64,000 bases of DNA, from the NCBI RefSeq assembly GCF_020514235.1, contig NZ_VTLB01000002.1, positions 496,001 to 560,000 on the forward strand. Reading direction: 5' to 3'. A model generated the notes under the pieces. The model had not been told where the DNA came from. It saw nothing but the letters and a program-made list of their open reading frames with translations, and ran no database searches. Position numbers and translations under genes: made by a program. This document shows, piece by piece, positions 1,717 to 6,357 of the stretch. This DNA comes from Synechococcus sp. MU1617. Its GTDB lineage: Bacteria; Cyanobacteriota; Cyanobacteriia; PCC-6307; Cyanobiaceae. How positions within the stretch are numbered: the first letter of the stretch is position 1; each line of letters begins with the position of its first letter.

Positions 1717-2667
1717 ATGGCCAGCGAGCAGGTGTGGGTGGTAGCGGCCTGCTTCAACGAAGCTGAGGTCATCAGCACCTTTATGGAGCGGGTCACGGCC
1801 TTGCAGGAGGTGGACCATTTGCTGCTCATTGATGACGGATCGTCCGATGCCACGGTGGCGGTGATCCGTGCCTGGCAGCAGAGCCATGCCGACCAGGCCG
1901 TCACCCTTTTGGAACTCACCCGCAACTTCGGCAAGGAGGCGGCGATGCTCGCGGGCCTGGACTACGCCAACGGCCGCTGTGCTGCTGCGGTGCTGATTGA
2001 TTCTGATCTGCAACATCCCCCGGAGCGGATTCCGGCGATGGTGCAAGCCTGGCGCAACGGCGCTGAGGTGGTCACCGCGGTGCGGGATGACCGTGATGCC
2101 GAAGGGCTAGTGAAGGTGGCCACGGCCTCCTGGTTCTATCGGGTGTTCAACCGCCTGGTTGATTCGATCCAGCTTCAGGAGGGGGCCGGCGACTTTCGAC
2201 TCTTGAGTGCTCCAGTGGTGGAGGCGGTGACCCAGTTGCGTGAGGCCACCCGCTTCTCGAAAGGGTTGATGCCTTGGACCGGCTACCGCAGTGAGGAGAT
2301 CGCATACAGCCGTGTGGCCAGGGTTGGTGGCACCACCTCCTGGAGCTCCCTCAAGCTCTGGCGCTATGCCTTGGACGGCATCTTTTCGTTCACCGTGAAG
2401 CCCTTGAAAGTCTGGGGTGTGATTGGTGTGCTGATTTCGTTTCTGAGCTTTGTCTATGCCGCCCTGATCGTGTTGCGCACCCTGGTTTTTGGTGTCGACC
2501 TGCCGGGCTACGCCTCATTGATCGTGGCCGTTCTGTTCCTGGGGGGGATCCAGTTGATCGGCATTGGCGTGCTGGGCGAATACATCGGCCGGATCTACAT
2601 CGACGTCAAACGGCGTCCGCACTATTTCGTCCGCGCAGTGCATCAGGGCTCAGAGCTGTTGCGCTAA
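1717..2667 (+). CDS. Polyprenyl-phosphate glycosyltransferase (GT2, GtrB/DPM1-like)
   Basis: Probably transfers a sugar from a nucleotide donor to undecaprenyl phosphate on the cytoplasmic face of the membrane. The 316-residue protein has the GT2 fold at residues 1-215: LLLIDDGSSD near 37, the DxD-type metal motif in DSDLQHPPE near 93, and GDFRLLS near 155, all typical of the GtrB/YkcC/DPM1 group. Two C-terminal membrane segments follow (about 228-250 and 262-285), ending in the family signature GEYIGRIY. The start ATG at 1717 has no strong Shine-Dalgarno. Its last codons fall in a 16-bp sequence repeated at 3870-3885. The convergent gene beyond the insert encodes a GtrA domain, the usual partner of GtrB enzymes, so the two likely act together. 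The sugar cannot be read from the sequence. Confidence 0.9.
   Translation: MASEQVWVVAACFNEAEVISTFMERVTALQEVDHLLLIDDGSSDATVAVIRAWQQSHADQAVTLLELTRNFGKEAAMLAGLDYANGRCAAAVLIDSDLQHPPERIPAMVQAWRNGAEVVTAVRDDRDAEGLVKVATASWFYRVFNRLVDSIQLQEGAGDFRLLSAPVVEAVTQLREATRFSKGLMPWTGYRSEEIAYSRVARVGGTTSWSSLKLWRYALDGIFSFTVKPLKVWGVIGVLISFLSFVYAALIVLRTLVFGVDLPGYASLIVAVLFLGGIQLIGIGVLGEYIGRIYIDVKRRPHYFVRAVHQGSELLR
2650..2665. repeat. Left copy of a 16-bp direct repeat bounding an AT-rich insert
   Basis: TCAGAGCTGTTGCGCT occurs here, at the very end of the GT2 gene (codons S-E-L-L-R), and again at 3870-3885, where it is the 3' end of the convergent GtrA–YdjC gene. Between the two copies lies AT-rich DNA carrying one methyltransferase gene. 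The pattern is that of a target-site duplication or of recombination at a short homology. Confidence 0.85.
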
Positions 2668-3869
2668 AGCCGATTTTTTGGGAGTCAGTTGCGTTGAAAA
2701 ATATTCGGGTATTTTTTTAGGTTAACTTTTTGGATGCAGGCATCATGAAAGTAGAGCAGTAATATCTACAATGAAACCCATTTTGAGGCTATTTATTGCT
2801 TGCGTTACATCATTATTTTCATAGATTTTCGTTGTACTATTTTACTGGGGGGAGCAAATTACAGGTATATTTTTGAGTCTGCCCGCACGTCTTTCGAAAT
2901 CGTTTGAGATGCAAGCTTGTTTCCTTTTGATCCTGCTTTGCTTGAATTCGTAATCCCTCTTTTAATCTTTAGGGAGACTATCGACTCAAAAATTATTAGA
3001 TTTTCTACTGAGGTTCTCACTGTGTCATTGTCTTTTATATAGGACAATCTAGAGCTTGGGTCGTTTAATAGTCTTATGGAGCGAGAGTTTATTCTTTCAA
3101 TGATATCGTTTACTTTGTCGAAAAAGTTTACTCCTGTGCCGTCGCCAAGAAAGTGATCGATATATGCGGTGTGTGTATCTTCTATGATAACAATTCCCTC
3201 GTCGCCGATGGCTCCATTTAGCGCGAAATCTATTGTTTTTGCTTGCGAAAATCCAATGTGACTGCCATCGTCAATAATGATATCAAATTGTCCGCAATTG
3301 TTGATTAGATTTTGCCATACTCTAGGATCGCTTTGGTCTCCAATGAAAACTGAATAATCGTCGCAGCTTAGACGCTTACACTCAGGATTGAGGTCAAGCC
3401 CATAAACCTTAGAGTTTGAGCCTAGGATTTTCTTCCAAGCCTCTAGAGAGCCCCCGTCCATTACACCAATTTCTAGTAATTTTATTGGCTCACCGGTTTC
3501 TTTCTTTTCAGTTAAAAATTTTTCAAGGGCAGACGCATATGATAGATAGTAGCTGTCGTACTTCCCGGTTTTTCTGCTTGAAGATGTAAATGATTCTTCG
3601 ATTAGCTGGTGGAGCGAAGGCATGTGTCGCGGGGAGCTGTGGTGAGATATTGATCCATTTTACTACTTTAGCAAGAATATCAGTATTGTCCCTGTCCCTG
3701 TCCCTAATCTCTTGCTCAATCGCGCGAATATTTATCTATGCAAATGATTCACATATTTTTGTTTCGAATTGGTTTTCAATCATTTTGGAAAGATCTGTGG
3801 ATGCCTTCGTTTTTGTGAATTTATGCGCTTTTAAGATTTTCTGTCGGAGTTTGGGGCTGGATGCAGCTT
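2666..3869. mobile_element. AT-rich 1.2-kb inserted segment carrying a methyltransferase gene
   Basis: This stretch is visibly AT-rich compared with both neighbours and is bounded by exact 16-bp direct repeats. Removing it with one repeat copy leaves two convergent genes that overlap at their 3' ends, each still ending correctly: the GT2 gene would read S-E-L-L-R-stop through TGA, and the other gene reads Q-Q-L-stop. No transposase, integrase or terminal inverted repeat is visible, so the agent of insertion is unknown. Besides the gene at 2859-3623, the flanks 2668-2858 and 3624-3869 hold no convincing ORF; a threefold TGTCCC tandem lies near 3687-3704. Confidence 0.6.
2859..3623 (-). CDS. 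Class I SAM-dependent methyltransferase
   Basis: A 254-residue protein with the Rossmann methyltransferase core: KLLEIGVMDGGSLEAW near residues 48-63 is motif I (SAM-binding glycine loop), VYGLDLNPECKRL near 73 carries the acidic residue at the end of strand 2, and FDIIIDDGSH near 114 with the later VIIEDTHTAY resembles the metal-linked DDGSH...EDxH pattern of the CmcI / sugar O-methyltransferase group. The substrate is probably a sugar on an envelope glycan, an inference from the glycan neighbourhood. The ATG at 3623 lacks a clear ribosome-binding site. Base composition is much more AT-rich than the adjacent genes, and the gene sits between direct repeats, so recent acquisition is likely. 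Confidence 0.75.
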   Translation of the reverse strand: MPSLHQLIEESFTSSSRKTGKYDSYYLSYASALEKFLTEKKETGEPIKLLEIGVMDGGSLEAWKKILGSNSKVYGLDLNPECKRLSCDDYSVFIGDQSDPRVWQNLINNCGQFDIIIDDGSHIGFSQAKTIDFALNGAIGDEGIVIIEDTHTAYIDHFLGDGTGVNFFDKVNDIIERINSRSIRLLNDPSSRLSYIKDNDTVRTSVENLIIFESIVSLKIKRGITNSSKAGSKGNKLASQTISKDVRADSKIYL

Positions 3870-3885
3870 TCAGAGCTGTTGCGCT
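3870..3885. repeat. Right copy of the 16-bp direct repeat
   Basis: Same 16 bases as 2650-2665, in the same orientation. Read on the minus strand it supplies the last codons and TGA stop of the GtrA–YdjC gene. It marks the right boundary of the AT-rich insert. Confidence 0.85.
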
Positions 3886-5084
3886 GACGTCCACTCCTTT
3901 TGACGGTTGGTTGAATTGAAAAAGGCCACAGACTGCTGAAACGCCTCCTGATCCATGCCTGATACGGCATCAGGGAGGGCTGGGTGGATCAGAACAACCG
4001 GCTGTGAAGCACGGTCGACATTGATTGAGCTGTAGGCCGTTTCCCAGCTGCGGCGAAACGCTGTTCCGAACATCCATCCGCTGAACAACACCCCGGCGAA
4101 GTGCTGGTTGGTTTCAAGGCCAGCCCGGCGCAGACGGTGGATCGCTAGCCCGCTCAGCAGCTGCAGAACCAGCCACTTGATCAGGCCGCCTGTCTGCAGG
4201 CTGCGCCACCAAAGCCTGAGCGATAGACCTTCCGGCAAGGGTTCCCGCGTCGTGCGCACCCAGGTGATCGATTCGGAAGGGGCCAGATCCAGCACGACAT
4301 CCAGCACCAGGGGCACAAGGTGGATGTGCTGGTGGCCATCGAGGCGGATCTGGCTCAGGCCTGTGAGTTGGCGGTAGCGGCTGATCTGCTGCTGCAGAAC
4401 CATGCGCAGCTGGGGGGCGATGCGTCGGCGCTGCCAGGGCAGGAGCGAAGCCAGCAGCAAGGTGCCGAATCCGCTCGGCAGATCTGGGCATTTGGCCAGA
4501 CGATGCCCTTCGGTGAGGCAGAGATGAAGGGTGAGCGGTGGTGGATCGGCAAGGTCGCGCCAGGCCTCTATGGCATCGGCCGCACTGGGACCATGCACCA
4601 GAAGACTGGCCCCCTGAAGCCGTCCGCTTTGGGCGAGATCGATGATGGCCGCATCCACCCCCTCCGCTAGGCCGAGGTCGTCGGCGTGGAGCAGTGGGGG
4701 TTGGCCGTTTTGTTGCTGACGGGCCTTGGCACTGAAGCGGGCCGCTCGGCTCCAGATCAGGGCATTCAGCAGCGTGGGTGTGAACACCAGCACCAGGGTC
4801 GGGGCCTGGAGCAGCGGCAGCAGGGCGCACACACTGATATTGACCACGTACTGCAGCAGCAGCCAGCGCCGGGCGAACTGGCGGCCTCCGGTCTCTTCAC
4901 GGAAGGTCAGCAGGGCATGGCCGACATAGCCCGCCACCGATGCGGCCAGGAAGGCGATGGGGTTGGCCAGGCTCAGGCTCATCCACTGGCCCAGCAGCAG
5001 CAGCACGCCGATGTGAACGGCCGCGGCGCTGACCCCCACCAGGCCATACCGCATCAACCGATTCAGCACAGGCGTCATCCGCAT
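3870..5084 (-). CDS. GtrA-type flippase fused to a YdjC-type carbohydrate deacetylase
   Basis: The 404-residue protein has two recognisable parts. Residues 1-120 form a GtrA domain: four hydrophobic helices (about 13-33, 38-60, 74-92, 95-112) with the family look RYGLVGVSAAAVHIG and GYVGHALLTF; GtrA proteins are thought to flip polyprenyl-phosphate sugars across the inner membrane. Residues 130-390 are a YdjC/ChbG-type deacetylase with metal-ligand motifs HADDLG at 133-138, the LTLHL histidine near 187, and LDGHQHIH at 248-255. YdjC-family NaxD of Francisella deacetylates undecaprenyl-phosphate GalNAc, so the fusion plausibly couples flipping with deacetylation of a lipid-linked sugar. It overlaps the MTA nucleosidase gene upstream by 10 nt. 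Which side of the membrane the deacetylase faces is not known. Confidence 0.85.
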   Translation of the reverse strand: MRMTPVLNRLMRYGLVGVSAAAVHIGVLLLLGQWMSLSLANPIAFLAASVAGYVGHALLTFREETGGRQFARRWLLLQYVVNISVCALLPLLQAPTLVLVFTPTLLNALIWSRAARFSAKARQQQNGQPPLLHADDLGLAEGVDAAIIDLAQSGRLQGASLLVHGPSAADAIEAWRDLADPPPLTLHLCLTEGHRLAKCPDLPSGFGTLLLASLLPWQRRRIAPQLRMVLQQQISRYRQLTGLSQIRLDGHQHIHLVPLVLDVVLDLAPSESITWVRTTREPLPEGLSLRLWWRSLQTGGLIKWLVLQLLSGLAIHRLRRAGLETNQHFAGVLFSGWMFGTAFRRSWETAYSSINVDRASQPVVLIHPALPDAVSGMDQEAFQQSVAFFNSTNRQKEWTSAQQL

Positions 5085-5836
5085 TGTGGGGGCGTGGGCG
5101 CGTCACCGCAGCGCTTCAGCAGGGCCTCAATCAGCCGCCAGGCCTGTTGTTCGTAGCGCTTGACGAAGTCTTCGAAGCTCTGGGCGGCTGCTTCATCGGC
5201 ACCATCGGAGATCACCCGCAGCACCAACCAGGGGACGCCCTCCTGTTCGGCCACCTGCGCGACGGCCGCACCTTCCATTTCAACGGCCCGCAGATCCGGA
5301 ATGGCATCCCGCAGTTTCTGCAGCACCGCTGGATCGCCGATGAAGCGATCCCCTGTGGCGATCAGCCCACTGCTTGGCTGTGCGAAACCGTCCAGGTCGC
5401 CCGCGTCGTGGGCCTCCAGCAGAGCGCTCTTGGCCCAGTGGAACCAAGCCGGCTGTGGTTGGAGCCGGTCCTTGTTCAGCGCTGGCAGCGTGAACCTTGG
5501 GAACAGGGGCCGGGCATCCATGTCGTGCTGCACCACGGCATCGGCCAACACCACATCCCACTGACGCAGAGCAGGATCGGCAGCGCCGGCAACACCGGTA
5601 AACACCAGCAAATCGATGCTGGGATCGCTGGCGAGCAGGCGTGTTGCCGCCCGCGCCGCGCTGACTTTGCCCCAACCGCTCCAGGCCAAGCTGAGGCGCA
5701 CCGTGTCGCTCCACGATCCCCTGTGGATTGCGAGGTCTCCGTGGTTGCTGCAGCTCAGATCCTTCAGGTGGCTGAGATCCGAGCCGATCTCCTCCGGCAT
5801 GGCGCCCAGCAGGCCGAGGTGCAGCGGTTGCGTCAT
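5075..5836 (-). CDS. 5'-methylthioadenosine / S-adenosylhomocysteine nucleosidase-like protein
   Basis: Cytosolic hydrolase expected to remove adenine from MTA or SAH, feeding methionine and quorum-compound recycling. The open frame extends upstream to 5959, but the ATG at 5836 gives a 253-residue protein that starts M-T-Q-P-L and places the family N-terminus LGLLGAMPEE correctly; Glu16 aligns with the catalytic Glu12 of E. coli MTAN. FTGVAGA near 80, the VEMEGAA segment near 193 and the RVISDGAD segment near 213 (catalytic Asp) complete the purine nucleosidase signature. It overlaps the GtrA–YdjC start by 10 nt on the same strand, so the two are probably cotranscribed. It is divergent from the ORF at 5914. 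Substrate preference within the family is not proven. Confidence 0.85.
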   Translation of the reverse strand: MTQPLHLGLLGAMPEEIGSDLSHLKDLSCSNHGDLAIHRGSWSDTVRLSLAWSGWGKVSAARAATRLLASDPSIDLLVFTGVAGAADPALRQWDVVLADAVVQHDMDARPLFPRFTLPALNKDRLQPQPAWFHWAKSALLEAHDAGDLDGFAQPSSGLIATGDRFIGDPAVLQKLRDAIPDLRAVEMEGAAVAQVAEQEGVPWLVLRVISDGADEAAAQSFEDFVKRYEQQAWRLIEALLKRCGDAPTPPQCG

Positions 5837-5902
5837 GGTTTCGTAAACCTCGGGCAACCGTAACGGCGACCTCTTGCTTCTCCCTGCACACTGTGCGGAA
5901 TC

Positions 5903-5908
5903 AGGAGG
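5903..5908 (+). promoter_or_regulatory. Strong Shine-Dalgarno AGGAGG deciding the start at 5914
   Basis: A full AGGAGG lies five bases before GTG 5914. Many genes here have no evident Shine-Dalgarno, so this settles the start over the upstream GTG at 5893. Confidence 0.7.
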
Positions 5909-5913
5909 TTGCA

Positions 5914-6357
5914 GTGAACGCGGGCGAGTCGGTACATAGCGTTGCCCGGATGCGAGCACTGGCTTCCACGATCACCCTTGTTCGCCGTCAGTTTCCGGCT
6001 GCGCAGGCCAACCTCAGCCCCTGGCGGGACGACCCGCAGACCCGACAGTGGAGTGAAACGGAATCACTCGACCTTGCCTTTCACTTCCCTGGCTGGAGTC
6101 CGCGATTGGAATGCCGCAGTTTGCTGATGCAATTGCGGATTTGCGCGGAGCGCGGTGATGACCAGCTGCGCCTGCTGGGGGTGTTGATGCGGGGCATGAC
6201 CTACGACGGTGAACGCTGGCGTCTCGCCACGGTCGGTGAATGGTTACCGGAAGGCCCCCACCTGCCCCAGCAGCATCAGGTGAAGCAGCTTCAGCAGATC
6301 TGTCGCGAGCTGTTCGAACTGTTTGATCGGAATGCTTCGTCCGATACAGCGGCGTAA
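5914..6357 (+). CDS. Hypothetical protein (147 aa)
   Basis: No family was recognised. The protein is soluble, without signal peptide or membrane segment. It has a basic N-terminal third, a middle section rich in Trp and acidic residues (WRDDPQTRQWSETESLDLAF), a short EWLPEGPHLP segment, and a C-terminal helix rich in Gln and Leu (QQHQVKQLQQICRELFELF). The start is set by the AGGAGG five bases upstream of GTG 5914. It lies head-to-head with the MTA nucleosidase and 75 nt before heme oxygenase. Codon use matches the core genome, so it is likely a lineage-conserved gene rather than a shadow. Confidence 0.65.
   Translation: MNAGESVHSVARMRALASTITLVRRQFPAAQANLSPWRDDPQTRQWSETESLDLAFHFPGWSPRLECRSLLMQLRICAERGDDQLRLLGVLMRGMTYDGERWRLATVGEWLPEGPHLPQQHQVKQLQQICRELFELFDRNASSDTAA

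Follow-up and report, generated by a model that had tools for sequence, protein, structure and literature searches.

A conserved GtrA–YdjC fusion in picocyanobacteria as a candidate membrane-bound de-N-acetylase of a polyprenyl-phosphate amino sugar

The window analysed here is the whole stretch of 64,000 nucleotides from Synechococcus sp. MU1617, whose genome (G000) comprises 2.32 Mb and holds one YdjC match. The gene under study is a single frame of 404 codons on the minus strand, running from an ATG at 5084 to a stop codon ending at 3870; the plus strand over the same positions is interrupted by stops (Table 1). The Pfam profile PF04138 (GtrA_DPMS_TM) matches residues 12-104 of the product (E 1.5e-11, 44.9 bits against a cut-off of 26.1), spanning profile positions 1-92 of 117, and PF04794 (YdjC) matches residues 132-399 (E 1.9e-38, 133.3 bits against a cut-off of 29.7). 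With both matches above their cut-offs and within one frame, the first-pass annotation of this gene as a GtrA domain joined to a YdjC-type deacetylase holds. The product of the facing GT2 gene matches the solved Synechocystis GtrB (sll0501, 5ekp; E 4.2e-85) and the solved ArnC (9hwj; E 1.8e-39). Between the two genes lies an insert of about 1.2 kb with a G+C content of 39.1% against 57.8% for the window, which carries an open reading frame of 254 aa (2859-3623, minus strand) and is flanked by a 16-bp direct repeat (2650-2665 and 3870-3885), so that the GT2 and the fusion both retain their own ends. In none of the other 35 fusion loci is the gap wide enough to contain it (22 nt at most), and by alignment it is absent from genomes G004, G061 and G131. 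The insert frame has no Pfam or NCBIfam match; weak tblastn matches to it occur in 6 phage records, some of them annotated as methyltransferases. On the other flank a PNP_UDP_1 nucleosidase-type gene (5075-5959, minus strand) shares 10 nt with the start of the fusion, and a relative of it is present in 8 of the 36 fusion loci (two of the 36 stretches being short) and in G131.

Table 1. Positions of the features in the window, with the basis of each assignment
Feature	Position	Strand	Basis
gtrA-ydjC fusion gene, 404 aa	3870..5084	-	ORF, Pfam, structure model, same architecture in 36 loci
GtrA part, residues 1-125, four predicted TM helices	4710..5084	-	PF04138, model helices, charge counts, Foldseek row
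YdjC/ChbG-type deacetylase part, residues 130-404	3873..4697	-	PF04794, 7vi8 structure match, phmmer
H56 in TM2, histidine signature of YdjC-linked GtrAs	4917..4919	-	alignments
D135 + D136 (general base and metal ligand, by match to ChbG D10, D11)	4677..4682	-	27/27; PMC9402603
H187 (metal ligand, = ChbG H61)	4524..4526	-	27/27; PMC9402603
H251 (metal ligand, = ChbG H125)	4332..4334	-	27/27; PMC9402603
H367 (general acid, = ChbG H206 by invariance)	3984..3986	-	27/27 and 30/30
Partner GT2, GtrB/ArnC-like polyprenyl-phosphate glycosyltransferase	1717..2667	+	Pfam Glycos_transf_2, structure matches
A+T-rich insert, 39.1% G+C, between GT2 and fusion	2668..3869	.	alignment, G+C, repeats

A model of the fusion protein predicted with AlphaFold2 from 30 aligned rows (mean pLDDT 90.7, pTM 0.78) has four long helices (residues 3-32, 37-65, 72-92 and 96-125), the fourth of which extends into the linker, followed by an alpha/beta domain. 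The four-helix GtrA domain previously placed in roughly the first 120 residues agrees with these helices and with the PF04138 match. In a Foldseek search the helical part retrieved Pyrococcus furiosus DPMS (9ep0) over 125 columns at 21% identity, with a probability of 1.00 but an E of 0.081; the table of solved-structure comparisons bears mainly on residues 127-404, and the GtrA assignment therefore rests on Pfam, the model helices and this one weak Foldseek row. The deacetylase part is predicted to have the ChbG fold, its model superposing on ChbG 7vi8 with Z 22.1 (rmsd 2.9 over 227 residues) and on EF3048 (2i5i) with Z 21.8; the top five structural matches all belong to the YdjC family, the next entry has Z 12.6, and phmmer aligns the fusion with 7vi8 at E 6.7e-7. 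The HADDLG, LHL and DGHQHIH motifs listed in the earlier reading are all present, and D135, D136, H187, H251 and H367 are invariant in 27/27 aligned fusion proteins and in all 30 rows of an alignment that takes in ten standalone YdjCs. In K. pneumoniae ChbG the active site is made up of D10, D11, H61, H125 and H206 (PMC9402603); the residues of the fusion were paired with these through the offset seen when phmmer aligns it with 7vi8, H367 by invariance only. By profile, active-site set and predicted fold the fusion belongs to the YdjC/ChbG superfamily, and N-deacetylase activity may be expected of it on those grounds.

On which side of the membrane the deacetylase works is a question that the fusion had been expected to help settle, with topology prediction proposed as the means. 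The prediction gives the GtrA part four transmembrane helices with both ends cytoplasmic (N-in/C-in). Across 27 aligned fusions the mean number of K+R is 3.1 at the N-terminus, 4.2 in loop 2 and 4.5 in the linker, against 0.0 and 0.9 in outer loops 1 and 3, and by these positive-inside counts both ends of the GtrA part and the deacetylase would be cytoplasmic. The deacetylase should thus face the cytoplasm, a predicted placement supported by inference from the charge counts.

It is clear that the fusion is not peculiar to this sequence. A YdjC match was found in 37 of 151 genomes drawn from the window's family, the other 114 having none, and 38 family YdjC loci were read, namely those of all 37 matching genomes together with that of G413. 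A single-frame GtrA-YdjC fusion is present in 36 of the 38, in 21 genera by genome labels, and several of the 36 sit in genomes listed as one contig; the remaining two are a lone YdjC (G005, L053) and a broken copy (G120, L097) in which a GtrA frame is followed by a YdjC part with stops. L111, L112 and L113 are among the 36. The nearest named hits are from Synechococcus and 87-89% identical, that of MU1642 being one of them. Of 22 named loci (Synechococcus, Prochlorococcus, Cyanobium, Vulcanococcus and others), which overlap partly with the family genomes, 21 carry the full-length fusion, and a frame change near the end shortens the other (L150). Synechococcus RCC307 (L164) has the fusion. Within the genus the orthologous GtrA stretch occurs in 25 of 34 genomes; frame lengths were taken for all 25, with an open frame of 375-482 codons in 24, not every one of which was read as a locus, and of 144 codons in one (G131). 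The stretch is absent from G416 and G436, two genomes of the genus that are at least 98% complete. In six comparisons dN/dS was 0.125-0.32 over the GtrA part and 0.17-0.30 over the YdjC part, which marks both domains as constrained by purifying selection. The earlier annotation had set as its refutation a fusion unique to this sequence with a frame joint; that was looked for and failed against the family count, and the fusion is confirmed as real. A frame joint or misassembly, for which the stops in G120 and the frame change in L150 might be cited, was rejected in view of the single-frame fusions across the family, some of them in one-contig genomes, and of the selection on both domains, and its probability is negligible.

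A draw of 292 genomes from the phylum gave YdjC matches outside the family too, in frames 185-403 codons long; the window's GtrA part has no match in L109 and L110, two of the longest of these frames. Origin from a phage or plasmid was considered and rejected: no record found by tblastn covered 80% of the fusion protein. Among 50,697 phage records one matched weakly, and 72,556 plasmid records gave 20 matches, all of which begin at residue 111 or later and so concern the YdjC part.

The association with the GT2 is as regular as the fusion itself. The GT2 gene is convergent to the fusion in 36/36 fusion loci, the 3' ends overlapping in 28, lying 1-22 nt apart in 7 and standing 1202 nt apart in the window alone. 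A GT2 match of more than 380 bits, a threshold chosen afterwards at the gap between 381 and 303 bits, occurs in 36 of the 151 family genomes, and a fusion locus (the broken one of G120 counted) likewise in 36, with 35 genomes in common; the match is broken by G131, which has the GT2 and a GtrA without YdjC, and by G052, which has the fusion with another GT2. In 18 further family genomes without the fusion, GT2 matches of 140-303 bits are interpreted as different proteins of what is a large family. A pairing kept up across 21 genera would be difficult to account for if the GT2 and the fusion did not act in one pathway; the convergent overlap is an odd layout for partners of this kind. In G052 (L045, 5589-7883) the convergent gene is a GT2 with only 31% identity to the usual partner, possibly the result of a partner swap. 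The window's own genome also encodes a DPMS-type GT2-GtrA fusion (L002, contig C7, 1489-2619), with Asn at the site in TM2 discussed below and a PMT_2 match about 0.2 kb away.

The same parts recur in other lineages, mostly as separate genes. A set of 58 non-cyanobacterial YdjC loci was made up of the best matches to the fusion, a sample that leans to its relatives, and was counted with GtrA and GT2 models trained on the fusions. A GT2 is present in the stretch in 45 of the 58 and within 300 bp in 31, a GtrA in 16 and 11, respectively, and GT2, GtrA and YdjC form a chain of separate neighbours in four, some proteobacteria among them; in Herminiimonas (L199) all three follow one another on the same strand, preceded by a PMT_2 gene in divergent orientation. 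The fusion-trained model found no fusion in the 58 loci, and a wider GtrA model found one (L183, 4980-6236, in a metagenome-assembled genome), a frame of 418 aa in which the order is reversed (YdjC 3-280, GtrA 298-412) and which comes after PMT_2 and GT2 genes. The number of GtrA helices being even (four), the deacetylase of this reverse fusion would lie on the same side of the membrane. Among 148 genomes of the order of L183, four have a YdjC match and only the frame of L183 is long enough for a fusion, so that the reverse fusion rests on one assembly. Within the phylum, 30 YdjC loci of the matches listed (L004, L067-L095) were examined with 1.5-kb flanks; a GT2 is present in 8 and a GtrA in none by the fusion-trained model, and the wider model found one GtrA beside a YdjC among them, in L088. 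In that locus (G240 contig C21, another family of the phylum) GtrA and YdjC are separate genes, the GtrA overlapping the end of the YdjC; a GT2 lies on the other side, and the TM2 site holds Gln.

The GtrA parts of the fusions share a signature. N41, H56, Q78, N82 and N107 are invariant in 27/27 of them, and the motif in TM2 is (G/A/L/M)-H-x3-(T/S)-(F/Y). The TM2 histidine is present in 22/22 fused loci compared and in 11 of 13 separate GtrAs at most 500 bp from a YdjC (the exceptions being L208 with Phe and L088), and in 2 of 6 that lie further than 500 bp away; the reverse fusion L183 has Gln at the site, and L276, 1.06 kb from a YdjC, has Asn. Among 49 GtrAs with no YdjC within 1.5 kb the residue is Asn in 43, Ser in 3, Gln in 1 and His in 1, with one unaligned (L268), and the single unlinked His belongs to a Halothiobacillus gene (L275) whose YdjC lies 1.7 kb away in L196. 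These 49 consist of the 30 best phylum matches, mostly long frames and not independent, and of 19 proteobacterial GtrAs from 20 genomes picked out of the 58, in which 30 of 35 matches were read; within those 20 genomes the histidine occurs in 10 of 11 linked against 1 of 19 unlinked GtrAs. H24 in TM1 is less specific, being found also in 9 of the 49. The site was matched by motif spacing, without alignment, to N69 of Listeria GtcA, which is more than 99% conserved among homologues, yet the N69A variant kept function; R95 and N132 are required in GtcA (PMC7389260), and N132 likely corresponds by TM4 position to N107 of the fusion, with R95 unplaced and the GtcA sequence itself outside the comparison. 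In a GtrA tree of 53 rows, four of them duplicates, 25 His rows and L100 (Gln) form one 26-row group with support 94/90 that spans cyanobacteria and proteobacteria, L291 (Asn) having been set aside. As judged from this tree, the signature was most likely inherited with the YdjC-linked GtrA lineage and not invented repeatedly. A bolder proposal, tentative and on balance doubtful, is that YdjC-linked GtrAs are a separate flippase lineage for de-N-acetylated, cationic polyprenyl-phosphate sugars, marked by H56 and usually also by H24, in which de-acetylation gates the flip, the two steps having been fused on at least two occasions, with GtrA first in picocyanobacteria and YdjC first in L183.

One genome of the genus offers a natural loss of the deacetylase. 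G131, listed as one contig and 99% complete, has at this locus (L096, 5824-7170) a GT2 and a GtrA-only protein of 132 aa that ends in the fusion's own C-terminal tail, the YdjC part being missing in frame. The surrounding DNA is 83-97% identical to the window in 150-bp steps; over most of the length of the GT2, identity falls to 61-77%, and that GT2 groups with those of two fusion loci of another genus (support 94/79). It lacks the Arg of the GD(F/Y)R motif, which is kept in all 36 partners and in 7 outgroup GT2s. At partner-invariant columns it is changed in 2 of 99, no more than other members (0-2; 14 in L054) in a test that omitted L045 as too divergent, so that a general change of specificity is unsupported and only the loss of the Arg stands out. 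The dN/dS of its GtrA is near 0.2, most of which may predate the deletion. The locus may represent a decaying pathway or one rebuilt for another sugar.

The reading judged moderately probable is that the fusion is a membrane-bound, cytosol-facing de-N-acetylase of a polyprenyl-phosphate amino sugar with its own GtrA unit. The GT2, as its family suggests, would work at the cytosolic face and attach an N-acetylated hexosamine to polyprenyl phosphate, and the YdjC part, by its predicted fold, would remove the acetyl group through an Asp-His-His metal site. The GtrA part may hold the polyprenyl chain of the same molecule and present or flip the de-acetylated lipid-sugar to the periplasm, where, in what is the least certain step, a PMT_2/ArnT-type GT-C transferase might transfer the sugar to a glycan of the envelope, lipid A or LPS core being possible acceptors; the window's genome has three PMT_2 matches, and a link of any of them to the pathway is conjectural at most. 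With the two steps joined, the flippase would receive the de-acetylated form exclusively, or receive it first. In favour of this reading are the conserved fusion, the constraint on both domains, the GT2 partner with its GtrB and ArnC matches, the GT2 and GtrA neighbours of YdjC outside cyanobacteria (L199 included), the reverse fusion, the ChbG fold and the positive-inside topology. From the literature, the YdjC protein NaxD de-acetylates undecaprenyl-P-GalNAc (PMC11279074), and GtcA, of the GtrA family, is needed together with a GT2 for C55-P-GlcNAc-based glycosylation (PMC7389260). Against it stand the partner genes, which are convergent and not one operon; G131, which keeps GtrA and GT2 without YdjC, though that GT2 lacks the motif Arg; the divergent GT2 in the slot of G052; and the patchiness of the locus, with 114 of 151 family genomes lacking a YdjC match. 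The closest solved relative of the GT2, sll0501/GtrB, is presumably a glucosyltransferase, which also counts against it because such an enzyme makes no acetylated sugar. In the published excerpts on marine Synechococcus LPS, glucosamine and galacturonic acid are named and no amino sugar added in this way; the composition given there neither proves nor excludes a free amino sugar made by this route.

Whether the GtrA part flips or merely holds is the point at which the main rival enters. The first-pass suggestion that the joining of a putative flippase to the deacetylase couples the two steps has fared well as to the coupling of the GtrA and YdjC domains, which is well supported by the conserved fusion, the constrained domains, the GT2 in every fusion locus, the four chains elsewhere and the reverse fusion; flipping by GtrA stays putative. 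In print GtrA proteins are 'putative' flippases, and an anchor role has been argued for Rv3789 (PMC7389260); the four-helix transmembrane domain of the GT2 P. furiosus DPMS, the same 9ep0 of the Foldseek list, is expendable for catalysis (PMC5526996), so that GtrA need not flip. It is accordingly conceivable, if unlikely, that the GtrA part is only a membrane and polyprenyl-binding platform that keeps the deacetylase near the GT2 and its lipid product, and that another protein flips the sugar. By the fusion-trained model, no GtrA lies within 300 bp of the YdjC in 47 of the 58 non-cyanobacterial loci, and only four are full chains, a count that favours a mere platform and weighs against the de-N-acetylase with its own GtrA unit. 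The GtrA part is nevertheless constrained and keeps its five residues in every aligned fusion, which an anchor need not do, and in G131 it is retained without a deacetylase. A second alternative, that the protein is a membrane-tethered HpnK/ChbG-type enzyme acting on some other glycan or lipid than the sugar made by the GT2, takes its force from the best NCBIfam rows, which are HpnK (75.8 bits) and chitin disaccharide deacetylase (ChbG, PRK02134; 59.8 bits). Both fall far under their cut-offs of 232.6 and 227 bits, and both equivalog assignments were rejected; with the GT2 in 36/36 fusion loci and a near-identical pattern of presence, a different substrate is improbable.

Comparison with known systems helps to place the proposed de-N-acetylase. 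NaxD resembles the fusion in YdjC family, polyprenyl-phosphate sugar logic and GT2 partner. NaxD is a separate protein not known to carry a GtrA domain, and its GT2 is Francisella FlmF2; the GT2 partner of the fusion fits the NaxD type by its GtrB/ArnC match. The ArnC-ArnD-ArnE/F-ArnT pathway, which adds L-Ara4N to lipid A in enterobacteria, follows the same logic, a lipid-sugar being made, de-acylated, flipped and transferred, and the window's GT2 matches ArnC; ArnD is of NodB type and ArnE/F are SMR-like, whereas the fusion unites YdjC and GtrA in a single polypeptide. GtrA/GtcA flippase candidates with GtrB/CsbB-type GT2s share the four-helix GtrA and the GT2 partner, and differ in that the window's GtrA is joined to a deacetylase and has His for Asn in TM2. 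In P. furiosus DPMS a GtrA-type domain is likewise joined to an enzyme acting on a polyprenyl-phosphate sugar, there a synthase and here a deacetylase. ChbG (7vi8) is alike in fold and active-site residues; it lacks a membrane domain and acts on N,N'-diacetylchitobiose, and the fusion scores under the NCBIfam cut-off for it. A search of one open-access library found no paper naming GtrA and YdjC together. PMC11851481 uses gtrA for a glutamate transporter, and the passages of PMC7716237 mention a YdjC and a MurJ-like flippase candidate without a GtrA. Each part is known, and what would be new, by these searches, is the GtrA-YdjC joining within a scheme of synthesis, de-acetylation, flipping and transfer.

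The role of GtrA, flip or anchor, is still argued (PMC7389260), and a GtrA joined to an enzyme whose product can be measured by mass spectrometry makes that question testable, the histidine signature identifying positions to mutate. The fusion gives an indication, too, of the membrane side on which this type of lipid-sugar deacetylase works, and it would predict an amino sugar absent from the descriptions of Synechococcus LPS consulted. Its position in the genome is conserved in Synechococcus and Prochlorococcus, organisms whose envelope chemistry matters for phage attachment and grazing. Together with its constant GT2 partner, the fusion suggests that three activities may work on one envelope building block at the inner face of the membrane.
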